Both the position numbers and the translations under genes were made by a program. This document shows positions 3 through 8,368 of a stretch of DNA of 64,000 nucleotides, in pieces. The notes under the pieces were generated by a model that had not been told where the DNA came from, did not search any database, and saw only the letters and a list, made by a program, of their open reading frames with translations. Source of the DNA: an uncultured Bacteroidia bacterium (GTDB lineage: Bacteria > Bacteroidota > Bacteroidia > Bacteroidales > UBA932); the NCBI GenBank assembly GCA_902762655.1, contig CACWOZ010000001.1, positions 124,001 through 188,000 on the forward strand. Reading direction: 5' to 3'. Each line of letters starts with the position of its first letter. Position 1 is the stretch's first letter.

Positions 3-1187
3 ATACGCAAACTGGAGAAGTTCATGCAGGGCAAGCCCGTGGCCGAGCAGGAAATCAGCCGCCAGCTCCTGAACGAGGTCGTGGCATACGCCGAGTCGGG
101 CCAGTGCCGCAGGAAACTGCTGCTCAACTACTTCGGCGAAGAATACACTCAGGAGAACTGCGGTTGCTGCGACAACTGCCTCCACCCGAAGCCCGTATTC
201 GACGGCCGCAAGGACATGCAGCTTGTCATCGACCTCATCACCAGTCTTCCGGAGCACTTCAAGGTCGAGCATCTCGCATGCATACTCGCTGGCAAGGAGA
301 CGGCCTTGATCAAGAGCTACAAGCACGACGAACTCGAATTCTTCGGCAAGGGCAGCGCCCACGACGAACGCTTCTGGATCACCGTCATCCACCAGGGAAT
401 AGTACATCATTTGCTCGAGAAGGAGATAGAGTCCTACGGCCTGATCTCCGTTACCGGAGCCGGCCTTGAGTTCCTGATCGCCCCGAGCAAGCTTGAACTC
501 GTGCAGGACGGTGTATTCAGCGACGACGGTTCCGACGACTTCGAAGACGAAGAGGCTGCAGCCGCAGCAGGTGCGGTGCGCGGCGGAGGAGGATGCGACG
601 AGAACCTCCTCAAGATGCTCAAGGACCTCCGGAAGGATGTCGCCCGCCGCCTGAAGCTCCAGCCGTGGATCATATTCGGCGATCCTGCACTGCAGGATAT
701 GGCCATCCTGTATCCTGTCACGATAGATGAACTCAAGAACTGCCAGGGCGTAGGCGAAGGCAAGGCGCGCAAGTTCGGCGCCGAGTTCGTCAAGATTATC
801 GCACAGTATGTCGAAGAGAACGACATCACCCGCCCGGACGACTTCGTGGTGAAGTCGGCTCCCAACAAGAGCGCAAACAAGATTTTCATTATCCAGAGCA
901 TAGACCGGCGCATGGACCTCGGGGACATCGCTTCCGCAAAGGGTATGGACCTCGATGAACTGGTGACGGAAATAGAGGGCATAGTTTCCACCGGAACCAA
1001 GCTGAATCTGGATTATTACATTGAAGACAATTACGACGAGGAAGATGTGGAGGAGATTTACGAATACTTCCGAATCGAAGCCGAATCCGACTCGGTCGAT
1101 GAGGCCATCTCCGCCCTCGGTGGCGATTTCGAAGAACTCGAAATCCGCCTCATCCGCATCAAGTTCCTGTGTGATATAGCATCATAG
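3..1187 (+). CDS. recQ: ATP-dependent DNA helicase RecQ (5' end outside window)
   Basis: This is the C-terminal part of a RecQ 3'-5' DNA helicase, which acts in recombinational repair and replication-fork processing. The reading frame is open to the window start, so the first visible ATG at 24 is internal and the helicase core with its Walker motifs lies upstream. Visible parts, in order: the RQC zinc cluster (a Cys near base 103, then CGCCDNC at about 157-180), the RQC winged helix, an acidic, alanine- and glycine-rich linker (bases 520-600), an HRDC domain (about 600-830, with the ILYPVTIDEL and CQGVGEGKARKFG stretches), and a C-terminal helix-turn-helix-like tail (about 880-1180) of the kind found in Bacteroidota RecQ. 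It ends 7 bases before dnaG on the same strand. Identification is firm; the missing N-terminus is only a window effect. Confidence 0.93.
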   Translation: MRKLEKFMQGKPVAEQEISRQLLNEVVAYAESGQCRRKLLLNYFGEEYTQENCGCCDNCLHPKPVFDGRKDMQLVIDLITSLPEHFKVEHLACILAGKETALIKSYKHDELEFFGKGSAHDERFWITVIHQGIVHHLLEKEIESYGLISVTGAGLEFLIAPSKLELVQDGVFSDDGSDDFEDEEAAAAAGAVRGGGGCDENLLKMLKDLRKDVARRLKLQPWIIFGDPALQDMAILYPVTIDELKNCQGVGEGKARKFGAEFVKIIAQYVEENDITRPDDFVVKSAPNKSANKIFIIQSIDRRMDLGDIASAKGMDLDELVTEIEGIVSTGTKLNLDYYIEDNYDEEDVEEIYEYFRIEAESDSVDEAISALGGDFEELEIRLIRIKFLCDIAS

Positions 1188-1194
1188 AACGGCA

Positions 1195-3192
1195 ATGATA
1201 CCCAAGGAAACGGTCGACCTCATCCTGGATACCGTACGGATAGAGGACATAGTAGGGGACTTCGTGACGCTGAAGCGCCGCGGGGCCAACTACGTGGCCT
1301 GCTGCCCTTTCCATCAGGAGAAGACTCCGTCGTTCTACGTGTCGCCTTCGAAAGGTATCTACAAGTGCTTCGGATGCGGGAAGTCCGGGTCCGCCGTAGG
1401 CTTCCTGATGGAGCACGAGCATAATTCCTACGTGGAGGCCCTGCGCTACATTGCGAAACGCTATAACATAGAGATCGTCGAGGAGGAGGAATCACCGGAA
1501 GAGCTTGCCAGCCGCCAGCGCAGCGAAAGTCTGATGCTCGTGAGCGAGTTCGCACAGAAGTTCTTTGCAGACCAGCTCAAATCAGGCGAAGGAAAGGATG
1601 TAGGCCTTGCCTACTATCATTCCCGCCGCCTGGAAGATGATACCATAGAGAAATTCGGGCTCGGCTGGGCCCCATCTGCCCGTACCGCATTGCTGGATGC
1701 CGCACGCAAAGCTGGCTACAAAGATGAGTATCTGTTGGATGCAGGACTTGTGGTAAAGAGGGAAGATGGCACCCTCGGCGACAAGTTCCGCGAACGCGTG
1801 ATGTTCCCGATACAGTCGGTGAGCGGACGTACCATCGCCTTCAGCGGCCGTACTCTCAAGGCCGACAATCCTGCAAAGTACGTCAACTCTCCCGATACCG
1901 AAATCTACCGCAAGAGCAACATCCTCTTCGGCATCTATTTCGCCAAGAGCGAGATATCCCGTCAGGATGAGTGTATTATCGTCGAGGGTAATATCGACTA
2001 TGTGATGCTCCAGCAGCTGGGCATACACAATGTGGTGGCCCCCTGCGGAACGGCGCTTACGGTGCAGCAGATCCGCCTGATACACAAGTTCACCGAGAAT
2101 GTGCTGCTGATGAACGACGGCGACTCCGCCGGCATACACGCTTCGCTGAAGGATATCGACCTCATCTTGTATGAAGGCCTGAACGTGCGCGTGGTGCTTC
2201 TTCCGGAAGGGGAGGACCCGGATTCGTTCAGCAAGGGCAGGAGCCTGGAGGAAGTGCAGGCGTACATCGCTGCCAATGCAAAGGATTTCCTCGATTTCAA
2301 GTCGGACATCCTCCTCGGGGAAGCCGCCGGGAATCCTCTCAAGAAGGCGAATTTCGTAAACGACATAGCGGACACCATCGCCCGCATACCCGATGCGGTA
2401 AAGCGCTCTGTTTATGTGAACACGGCCGCCGAGAAGTTCGACGTGGCTCCGGACATCCTCTTTGCGCGAGTGAAGACTACCCGCGACCGCCTGCTGGAAG
2501 ACGAGCGCCGTGAGCGCGAGCGTGCCGCCAGGGGAACCGATGGAGCAGAGTCCCCCTCTTCCGCGTTGCTTCGCAACCCTGTACGGGAAAATGCTCCAGA
2601 GGGGGACTCTGCTCCATCGGCATCGGCCAGATACACTCCGGAGAACCGTATCCTTGCGGCGGTGGAGGGCGATATTCTGACCTTCCTGCTGCAGCACGGA
2701 TGCGAAGAACTGCACTTTGAGACCGACTCCCCGTACTACGATCCTGATGCCACCGATACCGTGGCCGGCTTCATCGCCTCCGCCATAGAATCTACCGGAC
2801 AGCCATTGGCCAACAGCGGTTTCCGCCGCGTATATGATGCATATCTCGATCTTTATGATGAGGGCAGGCAGCAGGACGAGATTATCCGCACCCTTCTGGA
2901 CTCTCCCGACAGAACGCTTGCGGAAATAGCTGGAGAGTTCTCCACCAGACCTTATCAATTGTCTGTGAAGCGTTTGGAAAGTTCCATGACATCTGAGCAG
3001 TCATGGCTCGTGGCATATGTTCCCCGCGCCATGCTCACCCTGGCAGAGCGCCGGGTGGCATCGCGCTTAGAGGAAATACGGCGCGCCCTTCACGACATAA
3101 CGTCCGAAGAATCACTCCCTCTTCTGCAGGAGATGACCAAATTGCAGAAAAGACAGAAGAAATTGAAAGATACTCTGAAAAAAGAAGATTAA
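1195..3192 (+). CDS. dnaG: DNA primase DnaG, with an in-frame palindromic insert
   Basis: Synthesises the RNA primers used by the replisome. The 665-residue product has the N-terminal CHC2 zinc finger (C37, H40, C58, C61), the RNA polymerase core, and a Toprim domain ([11 protein letters not shown] near residue 262, NDGDSAG near 310), followed by a helicase-binding C-terminal region. The linker before the C-terminal region (residues about 448-476) is encoded by a perfect 23-bp inverted repeat with a 38-nt loop. A nearly identical loop occurs in dnaX. The linker reads through in frame, so the gene appears intact. The ATG at 1195 lies 7 bases after recQ and fits the family N-terminus (start [10 protein letters not shown]). 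metG follows after 8 bases, so the two are probably cotranscribed. Confidence 0.97.
2537..2620. repeat. In-frame palindromic element, dnaG copy
   Basis: The left arm 2537-2559 is perfectly complementary to the right arm 2598-2620 (23 of 23). The loop 2560-2597 begins TCCGCGTTGCTTCGCAAC and itself contains a small GTTGC/GCAAC hairpin. Both arms and the loop are translated as part of DnaG; the loop encodes [15 protein letters not shown]. The loop matches the element at 7898-7983 in dnaX with only a few substitutions, while the arms differ. This resembles in principle the protein-coding palindromic elements known from Rickettsia, but relatedness to that family is not claimed. Confidence 0.9.
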
Positions 3193-3200
3193 GACTATAT

Positions 3201-5285
3201 ATGGAAAAGAAGTTCAAGAGAACCCTGGTGACCTGCGCGTTGCCTTATGCCAATGGCCCGGTGCATATCGGGCATCTTGCCGGAGTATATGTGCCGGCTG
3301 ATATTTATGTGAGATATCTCCGACTCCGCGGGGAGGATGTGCTGTATGTGTGCGGCAGCGATGAGCACGGAGTGCCCATTACCATCAAAGCACGCCAGCA
3401 GGGCTGCAGCCCGCAGGACATAGTGGACAAATACCACAGTATAATCAGCGAGAGTTTCAAGGCCCTGGGCATCAACTTCGACATTTATGGCCGGACATCG
3501 TCTAAGGTTCACGAGAAGAATGCATCGCAGTTTTTCCGCAAACTCTACGACGAAGGCAAGTTCGTCACGCAGGAGAGCGAGCAGTATTACGACCCTGAGG
3601 CCAAGACCTTCCTCGCCGACCGTTATATTGTGGGCACCTGCCCCAAGTGCGGTAACGAGAGCGCCTACGGTGACCAGTGCGAGAAGTGCGGCTCAACTCT
3701 CAGCCCGGAGGAACTCATCAATCCTCACTCCAAGTTGAGTGGGGCAGAACCCATTAAAAAGAAGACCACGCACTGGTATCTTCCCCTGCAGGACTATGAA
3801 CCCTGGCTTCGCGAATGGATTCTGGAAGGACACAAGGAGTGGCGCTCCAATGTCTACGGCCAGGTCAAGAGCTGGCTGGACGGAGGCCTCCAGCCCCGTG
3901 CCGTCACGCGGGATCTTGACTGGGGTGTCCCTGTGCCTGTAGAAGGTGCGGAGGGCAAGGTCCTCTACGTGTGGTTCGATGCACCTATCGGATACATTTC
4001 CAACACCATGGAGCTTCTGCCGGATGACTGGGAGAAGTGGTGGAAGAGCCCCGATACCAAACTGGTGCACTTCATCGGCAAAGACAATATCGTGTTCCAT
4101 TGCATAGTCTTCCCTTCGATGCTTAAGGCATACGGCGATGGCTTTATCCTCCCCGAGAATGTGCCTGCAAACGAATTCTTGAATCTCGAAGGCGACAAGA
4201 TATCCACATCCCGCGGATGGGCCGTTTGGGCTCATGAGTATGTGCAGGATTTCCCGGGAAAGGAGGATGTGCTGCGCTACGTACTGACTGCCAACGCTCC
4301 CGAAACCAAGGACAATGATTTCAGCTGGAAGGAATTCCAGACCCGCAACAATTCCGAGCTGGTGGCTATTTTCGGAAACTTCGTTAACCGTGCCGTGGTT
4401 CTCACGCATAAGTATTTCGAAGGGAAGGTGCCCGCTGCCGGCGAGTTAACCGACGTGGACCGCGAGACTCTTGCCGAGGTCCCCGTGCTTCGCGAAAGCC
4501 TTGAGAAGAATATCGAGAACTATCGTTTCCGCGAAGCTCTGAAAGATGCCATGCAGATAGCGCGTCTTGGCAACAAATACATTTCCGACAGTGAGCCGTG
4601 GAAACTTGCGAAGACCGATCTCGCCCGCACAGGCACCATCCTGAATGTGTGCCTGCAACTCTGCGCCGATCTTGCCATCGCTTTCGAGCCTTTCACTCCT
4701 TTCGCTTGCGAGCGTTTGCGTAAAATGCTGAACCTGTCTTCCGTGGCCGGCATTGCCGGTCCGCAAAGCGTAGGTTGGGAGCAGTTGGGGGCGACCGATA
4801 TTCTGAAGGAGGGCCATCAACTGGGAGAGGCGGAGTTGCTGTTCGCGAAGATAGAGGACGATGCCATCCAGAAGCAACTCGACCGCCTTGCCGCCATCCG
4901 TGCGCAGAAAGAGGCGGAAGCCAAGGCAGAACTTGCGAAACAGGTCGCTCCACAGAAGGACGAATGCACCTTTGAGGAATTCGAGAAGATGGACATCCGT
5001 ACTGCGACCGTGCTGGAGGCGGAGCGTGTGCCCAAGACCGACAAACTCCTGAAACTCACGATAGATACCGGCCTCGACAAGCGCGTGATAGTGTCCGGCA
5101 TTGCCGAATACTACAGCCCCGAGGACATGCTTGGCAAGCAGATCTGCATCCTCGCCAATCTCAAACCCCGCACTATCAAGGGGATTGAGAGCAAGGGCAT
5201 GATTCTCATGGCCAAGCAGAACGACGGAAAGATGCGCTTCATCACTCCGCAGGAAGCAGTGGTGAACGGTTCGCAGGTTGGTTAA
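3201..5285 (+). CDS. metG: Methionine-tRNA ligase (MetRS)
   Basis: Charges tRNA-Met with methionine. The 694-residue protein starts [10 protein letters not shown]. It has the HIGH motif (residues 22-25), a four-cysteine zinc knuckle (about residues 147-164, CPKC...CEKC), the KMSKS-equivalent KISTS at 333-337, the anticodon-binding helical domain, and a C-terminal OB-fold tRNA-binding domain (about 590-694) that mediates dimerisation in homologues. The ATG at 3201 is chosen because the conserved N-terminus begins there. An in-frame extension upstream to 3003 would overlap dnaG by 190 bases and adds nothing conserved. The stop codon overlaps the end of the convergent methyltransferase gene by 4 bases. 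Confidence 0.97.
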
Positions 5286-5915: not shown

Positions 5916-6584
5916 TTATTTCTTCTTGATGCTGCGGAGTTGGTGGGTGTCGGTGGAGATGACCATCTCTATCTTCTTGTCGGACGAAGAGGATACAATC
6001 TCTATTCTTGCGTTCTCGAAAGGCCTGGCGGCGAGAAACGCATCCAGGGCTGCCTGCCTGTCGGTATGGACGGGGCCTATGGGTTTGGAACACAGGGCCT
6101 TGAGGCCGCGGTAGGCTACTTTGTCCGATTCCATCGCGCGGTTTATGTATTCTTGCAAAATGTCGATATAGGCGGGCAGATAAACCAGTTCATCCCCACC
6201 GGTCATATAGGCGGGAGCTATCGGAATCATCACTACGTCGAAGCCCTGCTTGAGTTGGTTCTCGTCTTCCGGGTCACCGCCTTTAGTAAGCGTCATGTAT
6301 GTGAAGTTGGCATCGAAGGTGAAGCGCACGAAGTAATAGAGGTTGGTGTAGCGGTCGCGGGTGTAGTCGGTGACCGTGCAGAACTCGTAGGGGGAAGCCA
6401 TCCATCGGCTGGAAATCTCTTCTTTCAGCACGGCATCGAATACTTCCTGCCCGGTCAGTACCACGCGTGTCGTGCGGGACGGAAAGTCCTCCAGGCGCGC
6501 CTTGCGGGTATAGATGCGGCCTTGTGCGAAGGCGCATGATCCGCAAAGTACCAGAAGCAATGCCAATAAATATTTTTTCTTCAT
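5916..6584 (-). CDS. Secreted protein of unknown function
   Basis: A protein of about 222 residues with a clear Sec signal peptide (MKKKYLLALLLVLCGSCAFA, cleavage after AFA before Q). The ATG at 6584 is preferred. A GTG three codons upstream at 6593 is also in frame but would only add residues before the basic n-region. No cysteine sits at a lipobox position, so a periplasmic or exported soluble protein is likely. The mature part is mixed alpha/beta with a conserved-looking run TDYTRDRYTNLYYFVRFTFD and a basic C-terminus ending RSIKKK. I do not recognise a family. It is divergent from dnaX, with about 50 bases between the starts. Confidence 0.75.
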   Translation of the reverse strand: MKKKYLLALLLVLCGSCAFAQGRIYTRKARLEDFPSRTTRVVLTGQEVFDAVLKEEISSRWMASPYEFCTVTDYTRDRYTNLYYFVRFTFDANFTYMTLTKGGDPEDENQLKQGFDVVMIPIAPAYMTGGDELVYLPAYIDILQEYINRAMESDKVAYRGLKALCSKPIGPVHTDRQAALDAFLAARPFENARIEIVSSSSDKKIEMVISTDTHQLRSIKKK

Positions 6585-6594
6585 GTTTCTCACG

Positions 6595-6627
6595 TTGGCA
6601 AATTTACACTTTATTTTATTATTTTTG
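6595..6627 (+). promoter_or_regulatory. Promoter of dnaX (Bacteroidota type)
   Basis: The -7 element TATTTTTG at 6620-6627 matches TAnnTTTG exactly, with a TTG at 6595-6597 (22-nt spacing) as a possible -33 element. The dnaX ATG at 6635 is only 7 nt after the box, so the transcript would be leaderless or nearly so. Confidence 0.6.
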
Positions 6628-6634
6628 TAATCCT

Positions 6635-8368
6635 ATGAGTGAGTATATAGTATCTGCACGCAAGTACCGTCCGGATTCCTTTGAAACCCTTATCGGACAG
6701 GACAACATAGCCAGGACGCTGAAGAATTCCATTCTCCGCGGCCAGCTGGCCCATGCCTATCTTTTCTGCGGCCCCCGCGGAGTAGGCAAGACCAGCACCG
6801 CACGAATTTTCGCGAAGACCATCAACTGCATGCATCCTACTGCAAATATGGAGCCGTGCGGGGAGTGTGAGTCCTGCGTGTCCTTCGCCGAAGGCCGCTC
6901 ATATTGCATTTATGAACTGGACGCTGCCTCAAACAATAGCGTAGAGGACATCAAGACCCTGATGGAGAAAGTGCAGATACCTCCTCAGGTCGGCAACTAC
7001 AGCGTGTACATCATCGACGAGGTCCACATGCTCAGCCAAGCCGCTTTCAACGCCTTCCTCAAGACTCTGGAGGAACCACCGGCATATGCTATATTCATCC
7101 TTTGCACAACAGAAAAGCATAAAGTCCTTCCGACCATCCTCTCCCGTTGCCAGACCTACGATTTCAACCGTATCGGCATCTCCGACATGGTGCGCAACCT
7201 GCGTGGGATAGCGGACAAGGAAGGAGTTAAAGTAGATGATGAATCCCTGCACGTGATTGCCCAGAAGGCGGACGGAGCCATGCGCGACGCCCTCACGATC
7301 TTCGACCAGACCGTTGCCTTCTGCGGTAGCGACATCCACTATGAGGATGTTATCCGTAACCTTGGAGTGCTGGACTACGATTATACTTTCAAACTTGTGG
7401 ATTTCTTCCTTGCAAAGGATTACGCCAGTGCTCTTCTGGAGTTCGACGACGTTCTCTCCAAAGGGTTCAACGCCCTGCATTTCGTGTCGGCCCTGGGTGA
7501 GCATTTCCGCAACCTGTTGGTGGCACGCACGGGAGGCCTGGAGTCGTTGCTCGACCTGCCGGAGTCCCTTAAGGGTCGCTATCGCGAGCAGGCCGGGCGC
7601 TGTACTATCCAGTTTTTTTATGACGCGCTCGGTATTACCACTGCCTGCGAGGCAGGTTACAAGTCCAGCACAAATCAGCGGTTGCATATCGAGTATGCCC
7701 TCATGAAGCTGGCATTTCTCGGCGGTGTGCCCGTGGCAGCTGCATCTCTCCCACTAGAAATCAAAGGGGAGGAGATAGTTCAAAGTGTTGATAATCAGCA
7801 AGATAGCCGCCATGTAACGAATGAGCCTGCCGCGACAAAGCGAAGCAGCCGGGCTAAGAAGGTTATGTCGGGGCTGCTGGCCGGGGAGGAGGATGATACC
7901 GCTTCTGCGGTCACCACTTCTTCCGCGTTGCTTCGCAACTCTGTACAGGAAAATGCTCCGGAAGGGGTGACTGCAGAAGCGGTTGACCCCGACATCCCGA
8001 CAGAAGACGAAATCCGGACAAAATGGCCGGAACTGGTGAAGGAATGCTCCAAGGGTAAACCAAGATTGGAGAATGCCCTTGCCAGCGCCGCACTCTCGTT
8101 TGCCGAAGAGGACGGATTCAGGAATGTCAGTTTCGAGGTGACCAACGAGGCCCAGAAGCAATGGATAGAGAACGGACTCCTGCGCAATATGGAAACCAGC
8201 TTTGCCAGGATACTCGGCAGCGGCAGGGTTCACTTGTTCGTAACCGTCAAACAGGTCGAAGAATCTGCACCAAAAGTATATCTTCCGGCAGAAAAGGCAC
8301 AAGAATTGATGAATACCAATCCCGAGGTCCTGAATCTTGTGAAGGATCTGGGCCTGGACGCAAATTAG
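6635..8368 (+). CDS. dnaX: DNA polymerase III gamma/tau subunit, with an in-frame palindromic insert
   Basis: Clamp-loader ATPase of the replicative polymerase. The 577-residue product has Walker A GPRGVGKTS (residues 46-54), a four-Cys zinc module (C65, C75, C78, C81), Walker B YIIDEVHML, sensor-1 and the arginine-finger SRCQ. Domain III follows, and then a low-complexity linker with the palindromic element (residues about 422-450) before a tau-like C-terminal domain. ATG 6635 (MSEYIVSARKYRP) matches the universal start; the frame is open upstream to 6467 but that stretch runs antisense through the neighbouring gene. lptB follows after 6 bases. No slippery A-run for programmed frameshifting stands out. 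Confidence 0.96.
   Translation: MSEYIVSARKYRPDSFETLIGQDNIARTLKNSILRGQLAHAYLFCGPRGVGKTSTARIFAKTINCMHPTANMEPCGECESCVSFAEGRSYCIYELDAASNNSVEDIKTLMEKVQIPPQVGNYSVYIIDEVHMLSQAAFNAFLKTLEEPPAYAIFILCTTEKHKVLPTILSRCQTYDFNRIGISDMVRNLRGIADKEGVKVDDESLHVIAQKADGAMRDALTIFDQTVAFCGSDIHYEDVIRNLGVLDYDYTFKLVDFFLAKDYASALLEFDDVLSKGFNALHFVSALGEHFRNLLVARTGGLESLLDLPESLKGRYREQAGRCTIQFFYDALGITTACEAGYKSSTNQRLHIEYALMKLAFLGGVPVAAASLPLEIKGEEIVQSVDNQQDSRHVTNEPAATKRSSRAKKVMSGLLAGEEDDTASAVTTSSALLRNSVQENAPEGVTAEAVDPDIPTEDEIRTKWPELVKECSKGKPRLENALASAALSFAEEDGFRNVSFEVTNEAQKQWIENGLLRNMETSFARILGSGRVHLFVTVKQVEESAPKVYLPAEKAQELMNTNPEVLNLVKDLGLDAN
7898..7983. repeat. In-frame palindromic element, dnaX copy
   Basis: The left arm 7898-7920 pairs with the right arm 7961-7983 with two mismatches. 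The loop 7921-7960 begins TTCCGCGTTGCTTCGCAAC and is nearly the same as the loop in dnaG (2560-2597). The arm sequences are unlike those in dnaG, yet again self-complementary. It is read in the same frame as in dnaG, encoding SSALLRN..VQENAPEG in a protein linker. Confidence 0.88.

Follow-up and report, generated by a model that had tools for sequence, protein, structure and literature searches.

The repeats in dnaX and dnaG

The window, i.e. the whole stretch of 64,000 nucleotides that was analysed, carries the genes dnaG and dnaX, both assigned by NCBIfam and Pfam, and each of them contains an inverted repeat (Table 1). The true start of dnaX is probably downstream of the listed GTG, since its best domain match begins only at residue 57 of the listed frame. 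The initial annotation had reported an inverted repeat at 7898-7983 in dnaX, a near-identical loop in dnaG and the in-frame position of both copies, and these three observations were confirmed. The inner 33 nt of the two loops differ at 2 positions, and the loop half CTGTACGGGAAAATGCTCC has 2 matches in the window when up to 3 mismatches are allowed, where 0.01 would be expected. In the dnaG copy of another genome (G173; L468 / L490), about 30 nt have been lost in and before the left arm, and the right arm matches that of the window genome.

Table 1. Positions of the two repeats and of the genes that contain them (coordinates of the window)
Feature	Position	Strand	Remark
Inverted repeat in dnaX	7898-7920 / 7961-7983		23-nt arms, 91% complementary, spacing 40 nt
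Left 20-nt arm, dnaX copy	7902..7921	+	pairing reaches 7898
Constant 38-nt loop, dnaX copy	7922..7959	+	translated SALLRNSVQENA(P)
Right 20-nt arm, dnaX copy	7960..7979	+	pairing reaches 7983
Inverted repeat in dnaG	2537-2559 / 2598-2620		23-nt arms, 23/23 complementary, spacing 38 nt
Left 20-nt arm, dnaG copy	2540..2559	+	pairing reaches 2537
Constant 38-nt loop, dnaG copy	2560..2597	+	
Right 20-nt arm, dnaG copy	2598..2617	+	pairing reaches 2620
dnaX reading frame	6467..8368	+	GTG start
dnaG reading frame	1195..3192	+	

The only Rfam match in the window was a tRNA. In two stretches carrying copies (L028 and L001), a search at E<=5 returned MIR898 (34 bits for a cut-off of 75) and snoZ247 (20 bits for a cut-off of 38). 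Both of these scores are below the cut-off, and a known structured RNA was not supported.

Distribution and anatomy of the family

When the whole genome was searched with the dnaX stretch, the same loop was found at several further places, and a loop pattern allowing up to 3 mismatches gave 8 copies. The dnaX loop has 2 changes relative to the commonest loop of this genome. Using an IUPAC loop pattern (<=3 mismatches), we detected the element in 59 of 400 genomes of the same genus, which may be Cryptobacteroides, the window genome included; a reversed control pattern gave no match among those listed in this search. In a family-wide draw, 3 of 149 genomes were positive, that is 1 of the 138 outside the genus. 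Many of the genomes searched are incomplete. The element also occurs in at least 119 stretches of a named collection; 79 of the 80 listed bear the label Bacteroidales or Bacteroidia, the remaining one being Schwartzia, and many come from rumen or other ruminant gut samples.

A wide loop pattern returned 179 matches, including other subfamilies. Removing the 66 with other loop ends left 113 copies, which fall into 48 locus clusters, 20 of them with a single copy. The unit consists of a 20-nt arm, a 38-nt loop and a second 20-nt arm, i.e. 78 nt or 26 codons. The arms had initially been measured at 23 nt; pairing is indeed present, weakening from 21 to 24 nt, but the arm consensus (CGGAAGGGGATACCCTTTCC; 78 copies) carries no information beyond 20 nt. 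Arm lengths were also examined for a phase signal, which was rejected as there was no peak at 19/22 or 20/23. The description of the arms as unrelated does not fully hold across the family, in which they scatter around this one 20-nt consensus; the dnaX and dnaG left arms each depart from it at 10 of 20 positions.

The loop contains small stems, in which 97.9% of the cells pair (26 loop sequences, hand-picked from 49 distinct ones). In this hand-picked set, 18 cells were changed on both sides, compared with 4.8 in shuffles (0/500), and the covariation score was 0.257, compared with 0.142 (0/500). Two other measures were not above shuffle level: pairs with a double change (3 vs. 1.5; 59/500) and further pair types (7 vs. 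6.8; 307/500).

A second subfamily (L118-L137, L162-L177) was found in four genomes (G020, G092, G208 and G251), with the loop ends GGGCGCTT...GCGCCC and arms around CTTGCACCA. Part of its copies look intergenic by eye. Several copies in G092 have nearly equal arms, and some adjoin runs of CGTCATTCCCG repeats. Composite arrangements were observed twice. In L349 (about 4030-4205), three loops follow one another with a period of 69 nt. In L388 (about 889-926, minus strand, and the adjoining stretch), a copy has next to it a second, decayed loop and a third arm.

Host genes and reading frames

Beyond dnaX and dnaG, the element is present in unrelated genes, on either strand. According to Pfam, the genes of the first 21 copies include dnaX (in three genomes), dnaG, metG, uvrA, mraW and rsgA, as well as genes for a RadA-like protein, a UvrD-type helicase, a FabD-like acyltransferase, the ATP synthase A chain, a prephenate dehydrogenase and an MFS transporter, the matched domains being presumably those of RadA and FabD where these names are used. 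The reading frame is unambiguous in 61 of the 113 copies. Two of the six frames account for 53 of these 61 (35 and 18 copies, with the peptides SASLRDPVRANA and GAFARTGSRSDA), the other frames for 8. The remaining 52 copies have an ambiguous frame (46), short flanks (5) or no frame of 150 codons (1).

Arms of the locus, loops of the genome

Within a copy, 90.2% of the arm positions pair, compared with 49.2% between copies (n = 113), and the 2039 arm pairs observed within copies compare with a maximum of 1187 in 1000 shuffles. The association of a fixed loop with differing yet pairing arms, first noticed in dnaX and dnaG, is found in 104 of the 113 copies (at least 15 of 20 pairs). Direct duplication of the arm was rejected: the right arm matches the left one at 35% of positions directly and at 90% when inverted.

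We compared copies within the same genome using 222 pairs from the 12 genomes with at least 3 sampled copies. The loops are 98.3% identical, whereas the arms are 51.1% identical, for 49.3% in independent draws from the column frequencies. The loops of the window genome are less uniform (94% identical). Arm pairs sharing at least 16 of 20 positions represent 1.4% of the within-genome pairs versus 0.4% of independent draws, and sampled copies of the same genome never share an arm (best 17/20). In five genomes (G019, G270, G179, G288 and CAMVMG), the distance of the arms to the consensus ranges from 0 to 12 of 20 positions, while most loops are the commonest of their genome. For instance, left arms are 0 to 10 positions from the consensus in G270, where all 10 sampled loops are identical, and 1 to 12 positions in G019, where 11 of 12 loops are identical. 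Where the arms of orthologous loci are similar (37 of the 72 pairs to which a genome was assigned, partly by accession prefix), the loops of two species differ on average by 2.0 of 38 positions; between the loci within a genome, the mean is 0.62 (233 pairs). Arm sequence is therefore chiefly a property of the locus and loop sequence chiefly one of the genome, since loops are uniform within a genome while arms vary, and loops differ between species even where arms are similar.

The idea that the two arms of each copy could derive from one ancestral sequence, which the initial annotation had named as evidence to the contrary, was half borne out. A single 20-nt consensus exists; 48 of 5246 arm pairs from different loci share at least 17 of 20 positions.

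Loops typical of the species and arms typical of the locus would be accounted for without any conversion if the 38-nt loop inserted by itself beside a short quasi-palindromic site, the second arm being then made as an inverse copy and one-arm alleles representing empty targets. Such sites would agree with the self-complementarity of the arms, which have at least 6 internal pairs in 28% of cases, compared with 2.7% of shuffles and of flank 20-mers. However, left arms can be identical at two different loci (L350/L376). Together with the alleles described below, this makes insertion of the loop alone rather unlikely in our view.

Alleles without the element and with one arm

For insert lengths, we relied on close relatives, because lengths measured against distant relatives scatter, the linkers themselves varying in length. 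At two sites, relatives have neither arms nor loop: L483 and L484 are 81 nt shorter at the L024 site, and L488 and L489 are 72 nt shorter at the L155 site. No direct target-site duplication was obvious by eye at these two sites, and no usable clean empty site was found in G020/G092.

Relatives with one arm or most of one were found at four sites. A tRNA-synthetase-like gene (ileS by eye) carries the element in G179, and exactly one arm in G288 and G183 (91% and 89% flank identity to G179), where it is 57 nt shorter, i.e. 38 + 19. One arm or most of one is also present at the L116 site in two genomes (63 nt shorter), in mraW in one genome (54 nt shorter), four further genomes having no arm, and in a LysM-domain gene in one genome (57 nt shorter). 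The length differences at all these sites are multiples of three, and the reading frame is kept in relatives without the insert.

The one-arm alleles at these four sites are what targets of a loop inserting alone would look like. However, both arms are missing in relatives at two sites, mraW has no arm in four further genomes, and the one-arm breakpoints differ, with 3-5 nt of microhomology at the three closely examined by eye, as expected for in-frame deletions. From these variable breakpoints and this microhomology, the one-arm alleles look like deletions, though they are possibly targets. Moreover, the arms seem to arrive together with the element, because both are missing in relatives at two sites and because unrelated loci can share an arm.

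Changes between orthologous copies

Different species carry copies at orthologous sites, with the loop in either orientation. We paired orthologous copies by their flanks and obtained 124 pairs; 14 were dropped for a copy with fewer than 15 of 20 arm pairs, leaving 110. The loop is flipped in 42 of these 110 pairs. With falling flank identity, the mean number of arm differences is 2.5, 5.8, 7.9 and 8.1, for 10.0 between other loci. In seven orthologous pairs, both copies have the same arm mismatch, probably by inheritance. One of these seven pairs (L149/L296) has a flipped loop, and this flip must have happened in place, since the shared mismatch marks common descent.

These data bear on the possibility that each species received its own insertions at a few tolerant linkers, with arms drawn from a varied donor pool. 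The dispersal of the 113 copies over 48 clusters, 20 of them single, would agree with it, as would the other palindromes found in some of the same linkers in relatives and two close pairs with largely different, mirrored arms (L099/L148 and L139/L147). However, the arms of orthologues are closer to each other than to those of other loci, the seven shared mismatches point to inheritance, and the sampled copies of one genome never have an arm in common. Independent insertions are thus an improbable source of the pattern.

Arm differences were then classified as one-sided or mirrored in the opposite arm. The 17 close pairs (>=84% flank identity) have 29 one-sided and 21 mirrored positions. Three pairs contain 20 of these 21 mirrored positions: L099/L148 (8 mirrored, 1 one-sided), L139/L147 (9 mirrored, 2 one-sided) and L350/L388 (3 mirrored, 5 one-sided), L388 being the compound copy. 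The other 14 pairs have 21 one-sided positions and 1 mirrored, in a split that was made after the fact and among close pairs that are not all independent. Mirrored positions are 109 for 44 one-sided in the 24 pairs at 78-84% flank identity, and 422 for 105 in the 69 pairs below 78%. Mirrored changes at distant orthologues would fit either arm copying or selection of a hairpin.

Both of these processes had been put forward in the initial annotation, and copying fits the data better: loops flip while arms are kept, and there is no G-U excess. A selected RNA (or DNA) hairpin, maintained by compensatory mutations as a host regulator or binding site, would explain the predominance of mirrored changes at distant orthologues and the covariation in the loop stems by two of four measures. 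However, most close pairs display uncompensated changes, and both loop orientations occur at the same site. The element was undetected (<=3 mismatches) in 341 of the 400 same-genus genomes, and its copies are in unrelated genes, on either strand. Furthermore, arm mismatches in the mRNA sense display no excess of G-U (GT 25, AC 39, p = 0.10; 91 copies with a strand). Selection of a hairpin is thus unsupported, and we consider it improbable. An asymmetry of GT and AC according to loop orientation was rejected: 22 vs. 49 when each cluster mismatch was counted once (p = 0.002) became 11 vs. 18 with one copy per cluster (p = 0.26).

A possible mechanism

The reading that we favour, with about an even chance of being right, is that of a selfish DNA palindrome about 78 nt long, located in frame in protein linkers, with arms copied in cis and a loop homogenised across loci. 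It is preferred because loops flip, because G-U is not in excess and because loop and arms contrast with each other. After insertion, one arm would be recopied from the other at the hairpin by template switching, so that the arms would stay complementary. As this copying would take place from arm to arm within a locus, each locus would drift to its own arm sequence. Another process would keep the loop uniform among the loci of a genome, either gene conversion via the 38 nt that the copies have in common or an active loop that homes anew. The element would need no function in the host: the mostly used frames would give short hydrophilic peptides, tolerated by linkers.

We infer this mechanism from the comparisons above, and two models are close. 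In a more novel reading, which is possible but to which we give less credit than to the favoured one, there would be two separate modes of concerted evolution, the stems being copied in cis within each locus while the loop alone would spread and be renewed in trans among loci; the 38-nt loop would then be the mobile unit, lodging in unlike hairpins or exchanged between them. The arms may perhaps have changed by rare whole-arm replacements, since gradual correction alone predicts mirrored changes over more close pairs. Homogenisation of the loop would have to act through only 38 nt of homology, and repeated insertion at favoured sites would look alike.

Finally, we looked for enzymes that could mobilise the element, and found none among the two families sought in 12 carriers. 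A Y1 (IS200-type) transposase domain (Y1_Tnp) was detected in 0 of 12 carriers versus 1 of 12 non-carriers (E<=1e-8, incomplete genomes), unlike what is expected of REPs mobilised by RAYT. A reverse transcriptase domain (RVT_1) was detected in 4 of 12 carriers versus 7 of 12 non-carriers. A link to either enzyme was thus not supported. One same-genus genome in which the element was undetected (G044; L436-L440) has five Y1-transposase matches.

Comparison with known repeats

In transposable repeats, it is usually the ends that are conserved, the interior being freer. Here the reverse is observed, with a conserved interior and ends that are free yet self-matching. Unlike MITEs, the copies have no one terminal inverted repeat in common (49% arm pairing between copies) and follow a loose consensus only. 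In-frame palindromic repeats are a known kind of element; what appears to be new is this family, as well as its reversed pattern of conservation. In the literature searched, outside of which lie most subscription journals, no description was found of a coding palindrome with a constant loop and locus-specific stems.

The Rickettsia palindromic elements (RPE) are, in the accessible part of PMC10969869, short palindromic repeats of about 150 bp that lie in frame within unrelated genes and encode a conserved peptide. According to the sections consulted of two other papers, RPEs lose their repeat identity over time (PMC6649704), and two RPE families correspond to CGTC repeats, seemingly without a dedicated transposase (PMC3733652). 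Our family resembles RPEs in that its palindromes occupy several protein genes unrelated to one another, in frame, and are absent from relatives in which the frame is kept. Unlike RPEs as described in these texts, a comparison by description and not by sequence, it has a constant loop and a stem that differs by locus.

The CGTC- and GTAG-tagged REPs have, in the part of PMC3733652 available, stems of 5-13 bp and loops mostly of 2-5 nt, with GTAG or CGTC as a tag at the end, and are also found inside genes, many of them replication and repair genes. The presence of hairpins within genes is a common point with this description. In contrast, our repeats have variable stems of 20 bp and a 38-nt loop, and the consensus of the type-a arms (78 copies) starts with CGG and has no such tag.

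Perfect inverted repeats in coding sequence are also reported from the mitochondria of Nematomorpha, with repeat conversion or template switching proposed to maintain them; the accessible text does not describe a dispersed constant loop (PMC6649704). According to the available part of PMC8604942, short inverted repeats that undergo template switching have their arms homogenised and their spacer inverted, in coding DNA too, and the combination of the two is a signature published there. Template switching is however a mutational process and no repeat family, and alone it accounts for neither the spread of the element nor its uniform loop.

If the favoured reading is true, the family would be a natural record, in many copies, of how arms are copied from each other and spacers inverted within bacterial genes. 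It would also allow tests, in a genus of which hundreds of species have been sequenced, of how coding palindromes without a known transposase arise and persist.

In relatives without the element, other palindromes were observed in frame in the linkers of metG, the MFS transporter, mraW and the L038 gene (L072, L073, L267, L042, L045, L078, L081). In proteins such as MetG or MraW, a given linker can thus hold different palindromes in different species, and the linkers of these four genes look like general landing places. These other palindromes include TGTCATTCTGAGCGAAGCGAAGAATCT and GATTCCCGG...CCGGGAATGAC and by eye resemble the CGTC-tagged repeats, as presented in the accessible part of PMC3733652.
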